Assembly (NCBI GenBank): GCA_944384215.1
Contig: CALWSN010000104.1
Coordinates: 1 to 34,680, forward strand
From: an uncultured Clostridia bacterium
Lineage (GTDB): Bacteria; Bacillota; Clostridia; Lachnospirales; CAG-274
DNA length: 34,680 nt
Direction: 5' to 3'
Under the pieces are notes generated by a model that did not search any database, was not told where the DNA came from, and saw only the letters and a program-made list of their open reading frames with translations. Shown here in pieces: positions 11,666-26,947 of the stretch (position 1 is its first letter; every line of letters begins with the position of its first letter). Position numbers and translations under genes: made by a program.

Positions 11666-12994
11666 ATGAGAATGTATGACATTATTCATAAAAAAAGAAA
11701 TAATGAAGAACTTACAAATGAAGAAATAGAATATATGATAAATCATTATGTATCTGGAGAAATACCTGATTATCAAATGTCAGCTATGCTTATGGCAATA
11801 TATTTTAATGGTATGAACGATAGAGAAATATCTACTATGACAAATGTTATGGCTCAGTCTGGTGATATGGTAGACTTATCTTCTATTGATGGTATAAAAG
11901 TTGACAAACACTCAACAGGTGGTGTTGGAGATAAAACAACATTAATAATAGCACCTATTGTTGCATATTATGGTGTTAAAGTTGCTAAAATGTCTGGTAG
12001 AGGTCTTGGTCATACTGGTGGAACTGTTGATAAAATGGAAGCTATACCTGGACTTAAAACTAATTTTTCACAAGAAGAATTTTTTGATATAGTTAATAAA
12101 ACAGGCATTAGTGTAATAGGACAATCTGGAAACCTTGCTCCTGCTGATAAAAAGCTTTATGCTTTAAGAGATGTAACAGCAACAGTCGAAAGTATACCTC
12201 TTATTGCAGCATCTATTATGAGTAAAAAACTTGCAGCAGGCAGTGATTGTATTTTATTAGATGTAAAAACAGGTAGTGGTGCTTTTATGAAAACCTTAGA
12301 TGATTCTATAAGTCTTGCTGAAAAAATGGTAGCAATAGGTGAAAATTGTGGTAAAAAAACAGTTGCTCTTATTACAGATATGGATATACCTCTTGGCAAT
12401 AATATAGGAAATTCTTTAGAGATAAAAGAAGTTGTAGATACTCTTAATGGTAAAGGACCTAAAGATTTAACTGAAATATGTATAAAACTTGCAGGAAATA
12501 TGCTTTACTTAGCTAATAAAGGTAGCATAGAAGACTGTGAAAAAATGGCTAAAGATGCTATTGAAAATGGATATGCTATTAATAAGCTTATAGAAATGGT
12601 AGAAGCCCAAGGTGGAGATATAGATTATATAAAAAATCCAGATAAATTTGAAAAATCTAAATATAGCTTAGATATAATATTAGAAGATAATATAGATGGA
12701 TATATTGGCTCTATGAATACAGAAGGTCTTGGTATAGCCTCTACAATGTTAGGTGCTGGCCGAGAAACCAAAGATGATGATATAGATTTTTCGGCAGGTA
12801 TTATTTTAAATAAAAAAGTTGGCGATAAAGTTAAAACAGGTGATGTTTTATGCACTTTATACACTAATGATGAAAAAAGACTTGAAAATGCTAAAAATAA
12901 AGTTAAATCTTCAATATCTATTACAAAAGATATGCCTAAAAAATTACCTTTAATTTTTGCAAGAGTAGAAAAAAATAATATTGAAAAGTTTTAA
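11666..12994 (+). CDS. pdp: Pyrimidine-nucleoside phosphorylase
   Basis: It phosphorolyses uridine, deoxyuridine and thymidine to the base and (deoxy)ribose 1-phosphate in the cytosol. It has 442 residues. KHSTGGVGDKTT (81-92) binds phosphate, KMSGRGLGHTGGTVDK follows, and LAAGSDCILLDVKTGSGAFMK lies between the two lobes. The C-terminal domain includes GIILNKKVGDKVKTGDVL. The family includes Pdp and thymidine phosphorylase DeoA; I prefer Pdp because this is a Gram-positive operon. AGGGAGG precedes the start. It closes the deoB operon, so uptake, deamination and phosphorolysis are expressed together. Confidence 0.93.
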   Translation: MRMYDIIHKKRNNEELTNEEIEYMINHYVSGEIPDYQMSAMLMAIYFNGMNDREISTMTNVMAQSGDMVDLSSIDGIKVDKHSTGGVGDKTTLIIAPIVAYYGVKVAKMSGRGLGHTGGTVDKMEAIPGLKTNFSQEEFFDIVNKTGISVIGQSGNLAPADKKLYALRDVTATVESIPLIAASIMSKKLAAGSDCILLDVKTGSGAFMKTLDDSISLAEKMVAIGENCGKKTVALITDMDIPLGNNIGNSLEIKEVVDTLNGKGPKDLTEICIKLAGNMLYLANKGSIEDCEKMAKDAIENGYAINKLIEMVEAQGGDIDYIKNPDKFEKSKYSLDIILEDNIDGYIGSMNTEGLGIASTMLGAGRETKDDDIDFSAGIILNKKVGDKVKTGDVLCTLYTNDEKRLENAKNKVKSSISITKDMPKKLPLIFARVEKNNIEKF

Positions 12995-13021: not shown

Positions 13022-13050
13022 TTGACTAAATTAATATTTAAGTGTAAAAT
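13022..13050 (+). promoter_or_regulatory. Promoter of the lipoprotein genes
   Basis: TTGACT (13022-13027), 17 bases, TAAAAT (13045-13050), 28 bases after the pdp stop. It gives the mini-lipoproteins and the binding protein their own transcription, as expected where a binding protein is needed in excess over the channel. Confidence 0.6.
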
Positions 13051-13089
13051 ATGAATTGAATAATATATTCTAATTTTTGGGAGGAAAAA

Positions 13090-13254
13090 ATGAAAAAATT
13101 AGTTACTTTAATAATAGCAGGTATGATGGCATTTAGTATGGTTGCTTGTGGTAGCAATAGCTCTACTGAAGAAACATCTTCTGAAAGCTCACAAGATGTT
13201 TCAACAGATGACGCTTCAACAGATGAAGATAGCTCAGAAGAAGTTAGTGAATAA
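13090..13254 (+). CDS. 54-residue acidic mini-lipoprotein, copy 1
   Basis: This short frame has a GGGAGG ribosome site. The product starts MKKLVTLI, has a hydrophobic stretch to MAFSMVAC (lipobox, C20), then 34 residues rich in Ser, Thr, Glu and Asp, ending EEVSE and a TAA. It should be exported, lipidated at C20 and anchored to the outer face of the membrane with only a short acidic tail. The signal peptide is nearly that of the binding lipoprotein at 13578, and the tail resembles that protein's linker, but no ligand-binding domain follows. The function is unknown. The frame is a complete gene rather than a broken end: the stop is shared with copy 2 and several differences between copies are silent. 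Confidence 0.75.
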   Translation: MKKLVTLIIAGMMAFSMVACGSNSSTEETSSESSQDVSTDDASTDEDSSEEVSE

Positions 13255-13307
13255 TTAAATAATATTTAGAAAATTTATAGTTTACTTATTTTTAAGGAGG
13301 CAAAAAA

Positions 13308-13472
13308 ATGAAAAAATTAGTTACTTTAATGATAGCAGGTATGATGGCGTTTAGTATGGTTGCTTGTGGTAGCAGTAGCTCTACTGAAGAACCATCTTCT
13401 GAAAGCTCACAAGACGTTTCAACAGATGATGCTTCAACAGATGAAGGTAGCTCAGAAGAAGTTAGCGAATAA
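13308..13472 (+). CDS. 54-residue acidic mini-lipoprotein, copy 2
   Basis: This is the second tandem copy, with AAGGAGG seven bases or so before the ATG. It differs from copy 1 at 8 of 165 bases by my count. Four changes are silent and four alter residues (I to M at 8, N to S at 23, T to P at 29, D to G at 47). Signal peptide and lipobox (SMVAC, C20) are unchanged. No promoter is evident between the copies, so both probably come from the promoter at 13022. I do not know a function; a small surface lipoprotein, or a partner of the nucleoside-binding protein, are guesses. Confidence 0.75.
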   Translation: MKKLVTLMIAGMMAFSMVACGSSSSTEEPSSESSQDVSTDDASTDEGSSEEVSE

Positions 13473-13577
13473 TTTATATTTAATTATATAAAATTTTAAA
13501 AAAATAGAAATATATTATTCAATTAATAGTTAAAAAATAAATATTATTTTATTTATTTTTACTAAGGAGGAAAAACT

Positions 13578-14714
13578 ATGAAAAAATTAGTTAGTTTAAT
13601 ATTAGCAGTAACTATGGCATTTAGTATGGTTGCTTGTGGTAACAAAGCTGAAAATCCTTCAGAGCCTACATCTTCAGAAGCTTCAACACAAGAAGAAGCA
13701 AAAGATGATACTAGCTCTAGCTCTGGAGCAGAAATAGCTCTTGTTACAGATGTTGGTACTATTGATGATAAATCTTTTAACCAAGGTTCTTGGGAAGGGG
13801 TTGTAAAATTTGCTGAAGAAAACGGTATTTCTCACAAATATTATCAACCAGCAGAAAAATCTAATGAAGCTATCACTACTGCTATTGAATTAGCTATTAA
13901 AGGTGGAGCTAAAACAGTTGTTTGTCCTGGTTTCTTATTTGAAGTTCCAGTATATAATATGCAACAAAAATATCCAGATGTTAAATTTATTATTATAGAT
14001 GGTACACCTCAAGATGGTAATGGTACATATGAAGTAGGTCAAAACTCTGAAGCTATCTACTTTGCAGAAGAACAAGCTGGTTTTTTAGCTGGTTATGGTG
14101 CTGTTATTGATGGTTATAGAAACTTAGGCTTTATGGGTGGTATAGCAGTTCCTGCTGTTATCCGTTATGGCTATGGTTTTGTTCAAGGTGCAGAATATGC
14201 TGGTAAAGAACTAGGTCTTGCTCCTGGTGAAATTACTATGAATTATACTTATGTTGGTGATTTTGATGCATCTCCAGACCATACAGCTAAAGCTGCTGCT
14301 TGGTATAATGAAGGTGTAGAAATTATTTTTGCTTGTGGTGGTGGCGTTGGTAACTCTGTTATGAAAGCTGCTGAAACTGCTGATAAAAAAGTTATTGGTG
14401 TAGACGTTGACCAATCAGTTGAATCTGAAACAGTTATTACATCTGCTATGAAAAACTTACAAAATGCAGTTTATAAAACTTTAGCTTCTATTTATGATGG
14501 CACTTTTGCTGGTGGCAAAACAGTTAGTTTAGGTGCTGCTACAGATGATATTTTATTACCTATGGAAACTTCTAAATTTGAAACTTTTAATCAAGAACAA
14601 TATGATGCTATATACAAAAAAGTATCAAATAAAGAAATTGAGTTAAAAGATGAAACAGCTGCAGAAAAACCTGACGGCTTAGGTTCAGAAATAGTTTCTG
14701 TAAACTTTAAATAA
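13578..14714 (+). CDS. nupN: BMP-family nucleoside-binding lipoprotein
   Basis: This is the extracellular substrate-binding protein of the nucleoside importer (BMP/PnrA/NupN family), 378 residues. The signal peptide ends in the lipobox SMVAC with lipidated C20. An acidic Ser/Thr/Glu linker follows (about 21-50). The binding domain starts at about 52 with IALVTDVGTIDDKSFNQGSW, the family hallmark. VCPGFLFEVPVY, GFMGGIAVPAVIRYGYGF, IIFACGGGVGNSV and VIGVDVDQS are further family segments. It lies after the channel operon rather than before it, in its own unit with the two mini-lipoproteins. AAGGAGG precedes the start. Base use is less AT-extreme than its neighbours, as expected of a highly expressed gene. 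Confidence 0.94.
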   Translation: MKKLVSLILAVTMAFSMVACGNKAENPSEPTSSEASTQEEAKDDTSSSSGAEIALVTDVGTIDDKSFNQGSWEGVVKFAEENGISHKYYQPAEKSNEAITTAIELAIKGGAKTVVCPGFLFEVPVYNMQQKYPDVKFIIIDGTPQDGNGTYEVGQNSEAIYFAEEQAGFLAGYGAVIDGYRNLGFMGGIAVPAVIRYGYGFVQGAEYAGKELGLAPGEITMNYTYVGDFDASPDHTAKAAAWYNEGVEIIFACGGGVGNSVMKAAETADKKVIGVDVDQSVESETVITSAMKNLQNAVYKTLASIYDGTFAGGKTVSLGAATDDILLPMETSKFETFNQEQYDAIYKKVSNKEIELKDETAAEKPDGLGSEIVSVNFK

Positions 14715-20255: not shown

Positions 20256-20294
20256 ATATATATGAAGAAAAATAGAATTTTTTGGAGGAATAAT

Positions 20295-20696
20295 ATGATT
20301 AATAAATTTAAAAGTAAAATCAAAGATAAAAAAGGTTTTACCTTAGTTGAAGTTATAGTTGTTATGACTATTATAGTAACACTTATAGCAATAGTAGGCC
20401 CTAATACTATTGGTTATATTAACTCTGCTAGAACAACTTCTAATAAAGCAACTGCAAGAGCTGTTTATATAGCTAGTATGCAAGTTGCAGCAGACGCAGC
20501 TATGAAAAATTCTACACTTGCAACAGAAGCAGATTTAAAAAATGCTATAAAAGCTGCAAACTTATTACAAGGTGATGCAGAAGCTATTTTAAAAGATACA
20601 ACAATTAGCTATGACCCTAAAAATTATATTATAAATTCTGTTACATATCTTGGTGAAAAATATCCAGAAGATGGAGAAGTAGCTCCAGCTAATTAA
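20295..20696 (+). CDS. Type IV prepilin-like protein
   Basis: This 133-residue protein has a 14-residue basic leader ending in KKG and then FTLVEVIVVMTIIVTLIAIV, the classic class III signal. Prepilin peptidase would cut between G14 and F15, leaving E at mature position 5. The rest is a helical spine and a small C-terminal part ending EDGEVAPAN, with no cysteine pair. The start is the ATG at 20295, set by TTGGAGGA; the ATG at 20262 falls on the transcription start. It could be a major pilin, minor pilin or ComGC-like pseudopilin. No prepilin peptidase, ATPase or platform protein is in the window, so it is an orphan here. A near neighbour is the c-di-GMP enzyme. Confidence 0.88.
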   Translation: MINKFKSKIKDKKGFTLVEVIVVMTIIVTLIAIVGPNTIGYINSARTTSNKATARAVYIASMQVAADAAMKNSTLATEADLKNAIKAANLLQGDAEAILKDTTISYDPKNYIINSVTYLGEKYPEDGEVAPAN

Positions 20697-25610: not shown

Positions 25611-26087
25611 ATGAATATTGTATACAATAAATTAGCAAATCATTTAATAAAAAACCAAGAAAAATTTTATAGATTATCTTATACTTATGTTAGAAATGAA
25701 AATGATGCTTTAGATATTGTTCAAAATGCAATGGTAAAAGCTTTAGAAAAATATAAAGATATAAAAAATATAGACGCTATAAATACTTGGTTTTATAGAA
25801 TTTTGGTAAATGAAAACTTATTATTTTTAAGAAAAAAGAAAAAAGAAATATGTACAGAAGATAAAGATTTAGATGCTATATATTTTGAAAATTATAATGA
25901 TAATATTGATATTTATGAAAAACTTAAATTTTTACCAACAGATACTCAAACTATAATTATTTTACATTATTTTGAAGATTTAACATTATTAGAAATATCA
26001 AAGATAACTAATATAAATATAAACACCGTAAAATCTAAATTATATTCTGGGTTAAAAAAACTAAGGGTAGAGTTTAAGGAGGAATAA
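25611..26087 (+). CDS. sigV: ECF sigma factor, SigV-like
   Basis: This 158-residue extracytoplasmic-function sigma factor has region 2 (FYRLSYTYVRNENDALDIVQ, then NTWFYRILVNENLLFLRKKK) and region 4 (LPTDTQTIIILHYFEDLTLL, then ISKITNININTVKSKLYSGL), with the usual linker between. AAGGAGGG precedes the ATG. The next gene, 2 bases after its stop, encodes an RsiV-like anti-sigma factor, so this is probably the SigV type that answers cell-envelope stress such as lysozyme. TTAAAACTTTTTA (25558-25570) upstream vaguely resembles the TGAAACTTTT -35 box of SigV targets, possibly for autoregulation. Confidence 0.88.
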   Translation: MNIVYNKLANHLIKNQEKFYRLSYTYVRNENDALDIVQNAMVKALEKYKDIKNIDAINTWFYRILVNENLLFLRKKKKEICTEDKDLDAIYFENYNDNIDIYEKLKFLPTDTQTIIILHYFEDLTLLEISKITNININTVKSKLYSGLKKLRVEFKEE

Positions 26088-26089
26088 AA

Positions 26090-26947
26090 ATGAAAAAAAT
26101 AGAAAATGCCAAAAATAAATATGATAATATTAAAATACCTCAAGAATTAAAGAAGATGACAAATATGTTAGTAAAACAAAACAAACCAAAAAATAAAATT
26201 AAATATTTTTATACTGCTGCGGCAAGCTTTATATTAGTTATTATTATAGGGTTAAATGTTAGCCAAACATTTGCTACAAGTTTTTCAAAAATACCTATAA
26301 TAGGTGAAATTGTTTCTATTGTTTCTATATATGGCAAAAAAATAGATAATGATAAAATAGTAAATACAGAAGTACCAAAAATATCTTCAGATGATGAAAA
26401 TGCAAAAGACACAACAGATAAACTTAATCAAGAAATACAAAATATTGTAGACAGTTATACAAAAGAAGCAGAACAACATATAGCAGAATATAAAGAAGCA
26501 TTTATAGCAACAGGTGGAACAGAAGAAGAATTTGAGCAAAAAGATATAGTAGTTGATGTTTCTTATGATGTAAAATCTGAAAGTAAAGAGCATTTATCAT
26601 TAGTTTTAAATGCTAATGAAAATTGGGTTAATGCTTACAATGTATCTTATTTTTATAATATAAATTTAAACACTGGTGAAAATATAACTTTAAAAGATAT
26701 TTTAGGTAATGATTATATTAATATTGCTAATGAAAGCATTAAAAACCAAATAGAAGAAAGAATGGCTAAAGATGAAAATGCAATATTTTTTGGATATGGC
26801 GAAGATAACGGTATAGAAGGTTTTACAACAATAACAGATGAAACAAACTTTTATATAAATGAAAATGGTAACCCTGTAATAGTTTTTGCTAAATATGAAA
26901 TTGCTCCAGGTTCTATGGGACAAATTGAATTTGAAATAGAAAAATAA
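26090..26947 (+). CDS. rsiV: RsiV-like membrane anti-sigma factor
   Basis: This 285-residue single-span protein should hold the sigma factor inactive at the membrane. A cytosolic part of about 38 residues is followed by a membrane segment (about 41-57), then an exterior region. The segment TFATSF after the membrane span offers a possible signal peptidase site, as in RsiV, whose lysozyme-triggered cleavage there is known. From about residue 155 the exterior part is DUF3298/RsiV-like (VDVSYDVKSESKEHLSLVLN, NLNTGENITLKDIL, GNPVIVFAKYEIAPGSMG). It starts 2 bases after the sigma gene stop. No target such as oatA or dltA is in the window. Confidence 0.85.
   Translation: MKKIENAKNKYDNIKIPQELKKMTNMLVKQNKPKNKIKYFYTAAASFILVIIIGLNVSQTFATSFSKIPIIGEIVSIVSIYGKKIDNDKIVNTEVPKISSDDENAKDTTDKLNQEIQNIVDSYTKEAEQHIAEYKEAFIATGGTEEEFEQKDIVVDVSYDVKSESKEHLSLVLNANENWVNAYNVSYFYNINLNTGENITLKDILGNDYINIANESIKNQIEERMAKDENAIFFGYGEDNGIEGFTTITDETNFYINENGNPVIVFAKYEIAPGSMGQIEFEIEK

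Follow-up and report, generated by a model that had tools for sequence, protein, structure and literature searches.

Do two very short open reading frames whose 5' ends resemble that of a neighbouring binding-protein gene represent genes in their own right, and, if so, what might their products do? The question arises in a 34,680-nucleotide stretch of DNA (hereafter the window; contig C104, GC content 25.6%) from a 1.9 Mb draft genome that is 81% complete. A nucleoside salvage cluster on the plus strand of the window ends in the twin frames and a gene for a BMP/PnrA binding lipoprotein. We use LP as the name of the mini-lipoprotein gene family, and LP1 and LP2 for its two copies here. The features of the locus are as follows.

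4774, plus strand: purine nucleoside phosphorylase (nucleoside salvage cluster)
5605, plus strand: deoC (same cluster)
6474, plus strand: deoB (same cluster)
7658, plus strand: cytidine deaminase (same cluster)
8084, plus strand: ABC ATPase (same cluster)
9615 and 10700, plus strand: two permeases (same cluster)
11666..12994, plus strand: pyrimidine nucleoside phosphorylase gene pdp (PF00591/PF02885/PF07831), by synteny the constant upstream neighbour of LP
13022..13050, plus strand: promoter TTGACT - 17 nt - TAAAAT; positions 13036-13053 (ATTTAAGTGTAAAATATG) are invariant in five genus members compared
13079..13084, plus strand: LP1 ribosome-binding site GGGAGG, from sequence
13090..13254, plus strand: LP1, a 54-aa mini-lipoprotein (signal peptide 1-19, lipobox Cys20, acidic Ser/Thr/Glu/Asp tail 21-54), with orthologues in 6 further genomes of the genus
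13294..13300, plus strand: LP2 ribosome-binding site AAGGAGG, from sequence
13308..13472, plus strand: LP2, the second copy, 54 codons; its protein is 93% identical to LP1
13564..13570, plus strand: BMP gene ribosome-binding site, from sequence (CTAAGGAGGAAAA, conserved in the genus)
13578..14714, plus strand: BMP/PnrA-type nucleoside-binding lipoprotein gene (PF02608, E=5.9e-46), homologous to LP in its 5' 60 nt

Other parts of the locus also deserve mention. The pdp of the genus is 69% identical to that of G039, a genome from another family, and approximately 50% identical to those of other genera of its own family; these identities suggest transfer of the nucleoside cluster between families. 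Elsewhere in the window, and by eye only, a small sigma-factor-like frame followed by a membrane protein (25611-26947) resembles an ECF sigma/anti-sigma pair, and a type IV pilin-like protein (20262-20696) carries a GFTLVE prepilin motif and stands alone, with no pilus genes visible alongside.

Two mini-lipoproteins and the 5' end they share with BMP

The original prediction of two tandem 54-residue frames, each with its own ribosome site, a complete lipobox and a 34-residue acidic tail, was confirmed. LP1 and LP2 sit in a repeat unit of 189 nt (92% identity, 218-nt spacing), and half of the differences within the frames are indeed silent (4 silent, 4 replacement). Their 34-residue tails contain 12 and 11 Asp/Glu, 16 Ser/Thr and zero Lys, Arg or His, for net charges of -11/-12. 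BMP and all 12 LP copies of the genus, LP1 and LP2 among them, match the PROSITE pattern for Gram-positive lipoproteins, and LP thus carries the features of Lgt and LspA substrates: a Lys/Arg-containing n-region, a hydrophobic core and a lipobox with its cysteine. Pfam recognizes no Bmp domain in LP; the protein stops after 26-57 tail residues, with no substrate-binding domain, and scores below the cut-off of every Pfam and NCBIfam model. AlphaFold models the signal helix alone (tail pLDDT ~50-54), a result that is uninformative for so short a protein and so shallow an alignment.

The first 20 residues were described as almost equal to those of BMP, and 16 of 20 match. Over the first 63 nt, the window copies are 90% (LP1) and 87% (LP2) identical to the BMP gene, and at most 70% identical to other lipoprotein genes of the genome over the 5' end. 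That LP copies both the signal peptide and the linker of BMP holds for the signal peptide; the resemblance of the linkers is weaker, consisting of composition and one 20-nt stretch (family D3) and with no clear copy. The corresponding LP-BMP identity is 72-77% in G002, G003 and G004 but 85-88% in G005, so exchange between LP and BMP is local. In BMP relatives outside the genus, the linker after the cysteine is mostly short or non-acidic, and copying may therefore have run in either direction, LP to BMP or BMP to LP. It is possible that BMP took its 5' end from LP, a direction that the LP of G001 allows.

A gene family of one genus

Eight genomes of one genus, the window genome included, were compared, and the stretch after pdp was read directly in each of the seven others (G001 to G007). 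LP lies behind pdp in seven of the eight, with one or two copies each. Twins occur in the window, G002 (47 and 46 aa), G004 (77 and 66), G005 (57 and 57) and G006 (61 and 57), and single copies in G003 (53 aa) and G001 (76 aa). G007, which is 99% complete, has no LP, and its BMP gene starts 83 nt after pdp; LP is dispensable in this genome, from which it was probably lost. Absence from relatives and frequent disruption had been named as signs of decay; both were looked for, and the outcome favours a real gene, the reading frame being intact in 12/12 copies. An LP HMM (profile A3) was run over 295 genomes of the order at E<=1e-8, and frames of up to 100 aa matched solely in the genus; among the matches listed, those from other genera were N-termini of longer frames. 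The comparison gives good support to a real gene family, found here solely in the genus: a new orphan family within a known kind, the small lipoproteins.

Across species the tails vary in sequence and length and stay acidic and Ser/Thr-rich; they lack aromatic residues and have hardly any basic ones. Each of the 12 is acidic: four basic residues occur overall (two per G004 copy), net charges run from -9 to -19, Ser/Thr makes up 37-49% and lengths are 26-57 residues. No motif is conserved across the species. Internal repeats are clear in two genomes alone, G004 (15-45 nt) and G001 (18 nt).

Selection and exchange between copies

The silent differences between LP1 and LP2 had been taken as a hint of selection to keep the protein, and this hint is borne out by the tails. 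Same-genome copies differ at 37 tail nucleotides and only 16 tail residues; counted by site, silent changes (19.5/112 sites) exceed replacements (17.5/428; Fisher p 6e-6). Simulation of neutral tails under AT-biased mutation rejects neutrality at P<=0.002 for transition biases (kappa) up to 16, and many of the simulated sets contain a stop. In the signal-peptide parts, the silent excess is not significant in the site test (p 0.33) and is slight in simulation (P 0.04-0.19). Neutral drift by 30-50 changes in a genome of 25.6% GC nearly always breaks the tail composition, adding Lys, Phe, Tyr, Ile or stops; the drift test assumes independent substitutions, and repeat slippage also shapes these tails. 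Judged by these sequence comparisons, purifying selection acts on the LP tails.

The G005 copies illustrate the pattern. Their tails are identical at 37/37 residues with 6 silent differences, and their signal peptides differ by 3 residues. In both G005 and G006, first copies start with MKKLF and second copies with MKKI, and the LP1-LP2 spacers are alike, so the duplication is older than the split of the two species. Yet the G005 tail pair differs by 6 changes, all silent, against 10 to 14 from its G006 counterparts; this likeness is what gene conversion would leave.

A dedicated promoter

Over five species, identity in the leader of the first copy is 68%, compared with 41-42% in the two spacers, and the invariant 18-nt run of this leader spans the -10 region. 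Between the two promoter boxes, the spacer is conserved and is no homopolymeric tract. When one mismatch at most was allowed, each of the six genomes of the genus searched gave a single hit to the promoter pattern, in every case in the LP slot; G003 has one extra site with 3 mismatches, and there is no sign of a regulon. In six genomes LP is placed after the conserved promoter and before BMP, so co-transcription of LP and BMP is likely, and the genes probably form one transcript wherever both LP and BMP are present.

Few RNA structures stand out. The LP-BMP spacer was considered as an RNA element and rejected, as it folds no better than shuffled sequences (z -0.5 to +0.5). The outstanding folds are a strong terminator hairpin after LP in G001 (z -3.4) and a hairpin in the LP1-LP2 spacer of G005 (L010:4172-4253, z -3.0), whose arms change in a pairing-compatible manner in G006, as judged by eye. 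Separately, an inverted repeat of 52 nt (81% complementary) flanks the twin frames at 13027-13078 and 13500-13551; its core, ATTGAATAATATAT / ATATATTATTCAA, recurs in G002 (L009). The repeat may reflect a dyad, GAATA-N3-TATTC, that occurs twice near the promoter, or it may be a chance product of AT-rich sequence.

LP without the transporter, and the transporter without LP

The key case for the INDEPENDENCE of LP from the BMP transporter is G001 (98% complete). Searches of this genome for BMP (E<=1e-20) and for the Nup permease (E<=1e-10) give no match, yet an LP gene follows pdp there as in its relatives, under the same promoter and with a terminator of its own. G007 presents the reverse, with BMP and Nup present and LP absent. 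Judged from these two genomes, LP is thus not a BMP fragment in decay, nor is it a partner that the transporter needs, and the corresponding proposals of the original prediction, a transporter partner and a remnant of BMP duplication, are not supported. The conserved promoter, the occurrence of LP without BMP and the conservation across the genus all go beyond what had been spotted at first.

A tree of pdp places G001 outside the seven remaining genomes, its order relative to the outgroup G039 being unresolved, and nests G007 inside the seven. The simplest history would place LP in the common ancestor, with loss in G007. In that genome, the LP promoter lies directly before BMP, and at L011:3905-4025 a leader that is LP1-type up to the start codon is joined directly to a BMP-type coding sequence. 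Such a junction would be expected if LP had been deleted through recombination of one repeated 5' end with the other.

Proposed function and alternatives

With confidence and doubt about evenly balanced, we propose that both LP1 and LP2 are functional, as copies of a mini-lipoprotein gene that is specific to the genus and has a dedicated promoter, and that the product is a lipid-anchored, acidic, disordered bristle on the cell surface. The LP product would be exported, lipidated at Cys20 and cleaved there, which would leave a diacylglyceryl-cysteine bearing a strongly negative, unfolded Ser/Thr/Glu/Asp tail of 26-57 residues on the external membrane face. The product would most likely act by bulk properties (charge, length and copy number), as a short anionic brush or spacer between membrane and wall, a function that we derive from tail composition. 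Tandem duplication would raise LP dosage, repeat slippage would alter tail length, and recombination between copies would keep the tails alike. The lack of a domain, the selected acidic composition and the variable length and copy number together make a bristle acting via charge and length the most economical reading. A lipid-anchored acidic spacer was among the roles first suggested, and it survives as the best fit to acidic tails in 12/12 copies and selection on those tails; the signal-helix-only AlphaFold model is loosely consistent with it. More tentatively, LP may exemplify a lineage-specific, domain-free class of lipoproteins: free-standing, lipid-anchored anionic brushes, selected in composition and free in sequence, homogenised by gene conversion, that may have donated signal peptide and acidic linker to the BMP gene that came to lie behind them.

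It is also conceivable, if rather doubtful, that the tail acts in a specific way, as a ligand for a cation or cationic peptide, or as a substrate that is glycosylated or cut to free a tail peptide. The strong charge and high Ser/Thr content of every tail would suit such a role, as would the acidic end and the near-C-terminal Ser that most copies have; the lack of a conserved motif across species, the range of lengths and the lack of any modifying enzyme seen near LP speak against it.

We consider it unlikely that LP is an accessory of nucleoside uptake that organises, shields or feeds BMP and its ABC transporter from a common promoter. The gene order and probable co-transcription in six genomes favor this role, and BMP shares the signal peptide and has a similar acidic linker, whereas the linkers of BMPs outside the genus are mostly short or non-acidic; even in G001, LP still lies behind pdp, within the nucleoside catabolism cluster. 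However, G001 has LP with neither BMP nor the Nup permease, and G007 has both of these and no LP.

A third alternative, originally raised as a signal peptide-derived pheromone, is very improbable. Here the signal peptide would be the useful product, a hydrophobic pheromone as in the enterococcal cCF10/cAD1 precursors, and the tail ballast. LP is a short lipoprotein with an ordinary lipobox, and enterococcal pheromones are the last residues of lipoprotein signal peptides (PMC7117660). A precursor of this kind would have its signal peptide more constrained than its tail and identical between copies; in LP, the significant constraint is on the tail, and the G005 copies differ in their signal peptides and not in their tails. 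Nearly the same signal peptide is found on BMP, so no special source would be needed, and the Rgg/PrgX-type receptor (TIGR01716), the only receptor family searched, has no match in nine genomes.

Finally, the view of the twins as neutral debris, in which the 5' part of the BMP gene was duplicated and the copies stayed open by chance, has little to recommend it beyond the 87-90% identity of the first 63 nt, a copy number of 0-2 and the absence from G007, and is largely refuted by the dedicated conserved promoter and by the evidence that speaks against a BMP-derived pseudogene, namely 12/12 open frames, purifying selection on the tails and LP without BMP in G001, the most divergent genus member examined.

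Significance and comparison with known systems

Frames so short and domain-free tend to be dropped by annotation pipelines, and LP is a maintained gene with a conserved promoter. It provides a clean natural example of a bacterial surface protein that is selected on composition and length rather than on exact sequence. The case also serves as a warning: what resembles a damaged duplicate of a binding protein can be a gene in its own right. In the literature on small acidic Gram-positive lipoproteins, we found nothing directly relevant.

Among known systems, the downstream neighbour BMP/PnrA (PF02608) has a signal peptide, a lipobox and an acidic, Ser/Thr-rich N-terminal stretch in common with LP; LP differs in lacking the substrate-binding domain, in having its own promoter and in being present without BMP in G001. 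The PG1828 family lipoprotein (NCBIfam NF050142), whose name comes from a gene of Porphyromonas gingivalis, is likewise very short, with a 59-position model that all 11 LP rows match below the cut-off (24.2 bits against 50), mostly through the signal peptide. Enterococcal pheromone precursors, such as CcfA and others, resemble LP in a lipoprotein signal peptide processed at the cysteine, and differ in that LP is constrained in its tail, not in its signal peptide, and in that no receptor of the Rgg type was found. The acidic lipoprotein LytA of Bacillus subtilis (NCBIfam NF058647) is small and acidic like LP and is a plausible functional analogue, although the match, over residues 1-44, scores 19.6 bits against a cut-off of 110 and no lyt genes lie beside LP. 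The Vlp proteins of Mycoplasma hyorhinis are paralogues with a common signal sequence and tails of short repeats in variable number (PMC12815946). LP, from a clostridial genus, is not homologous to them as far as known, has no phase-variation tract found at its locus and shows clear repeats only in G004 and G001; what it does have, like Vlp, is tandem paralogues with repeat-built tails of variable length.
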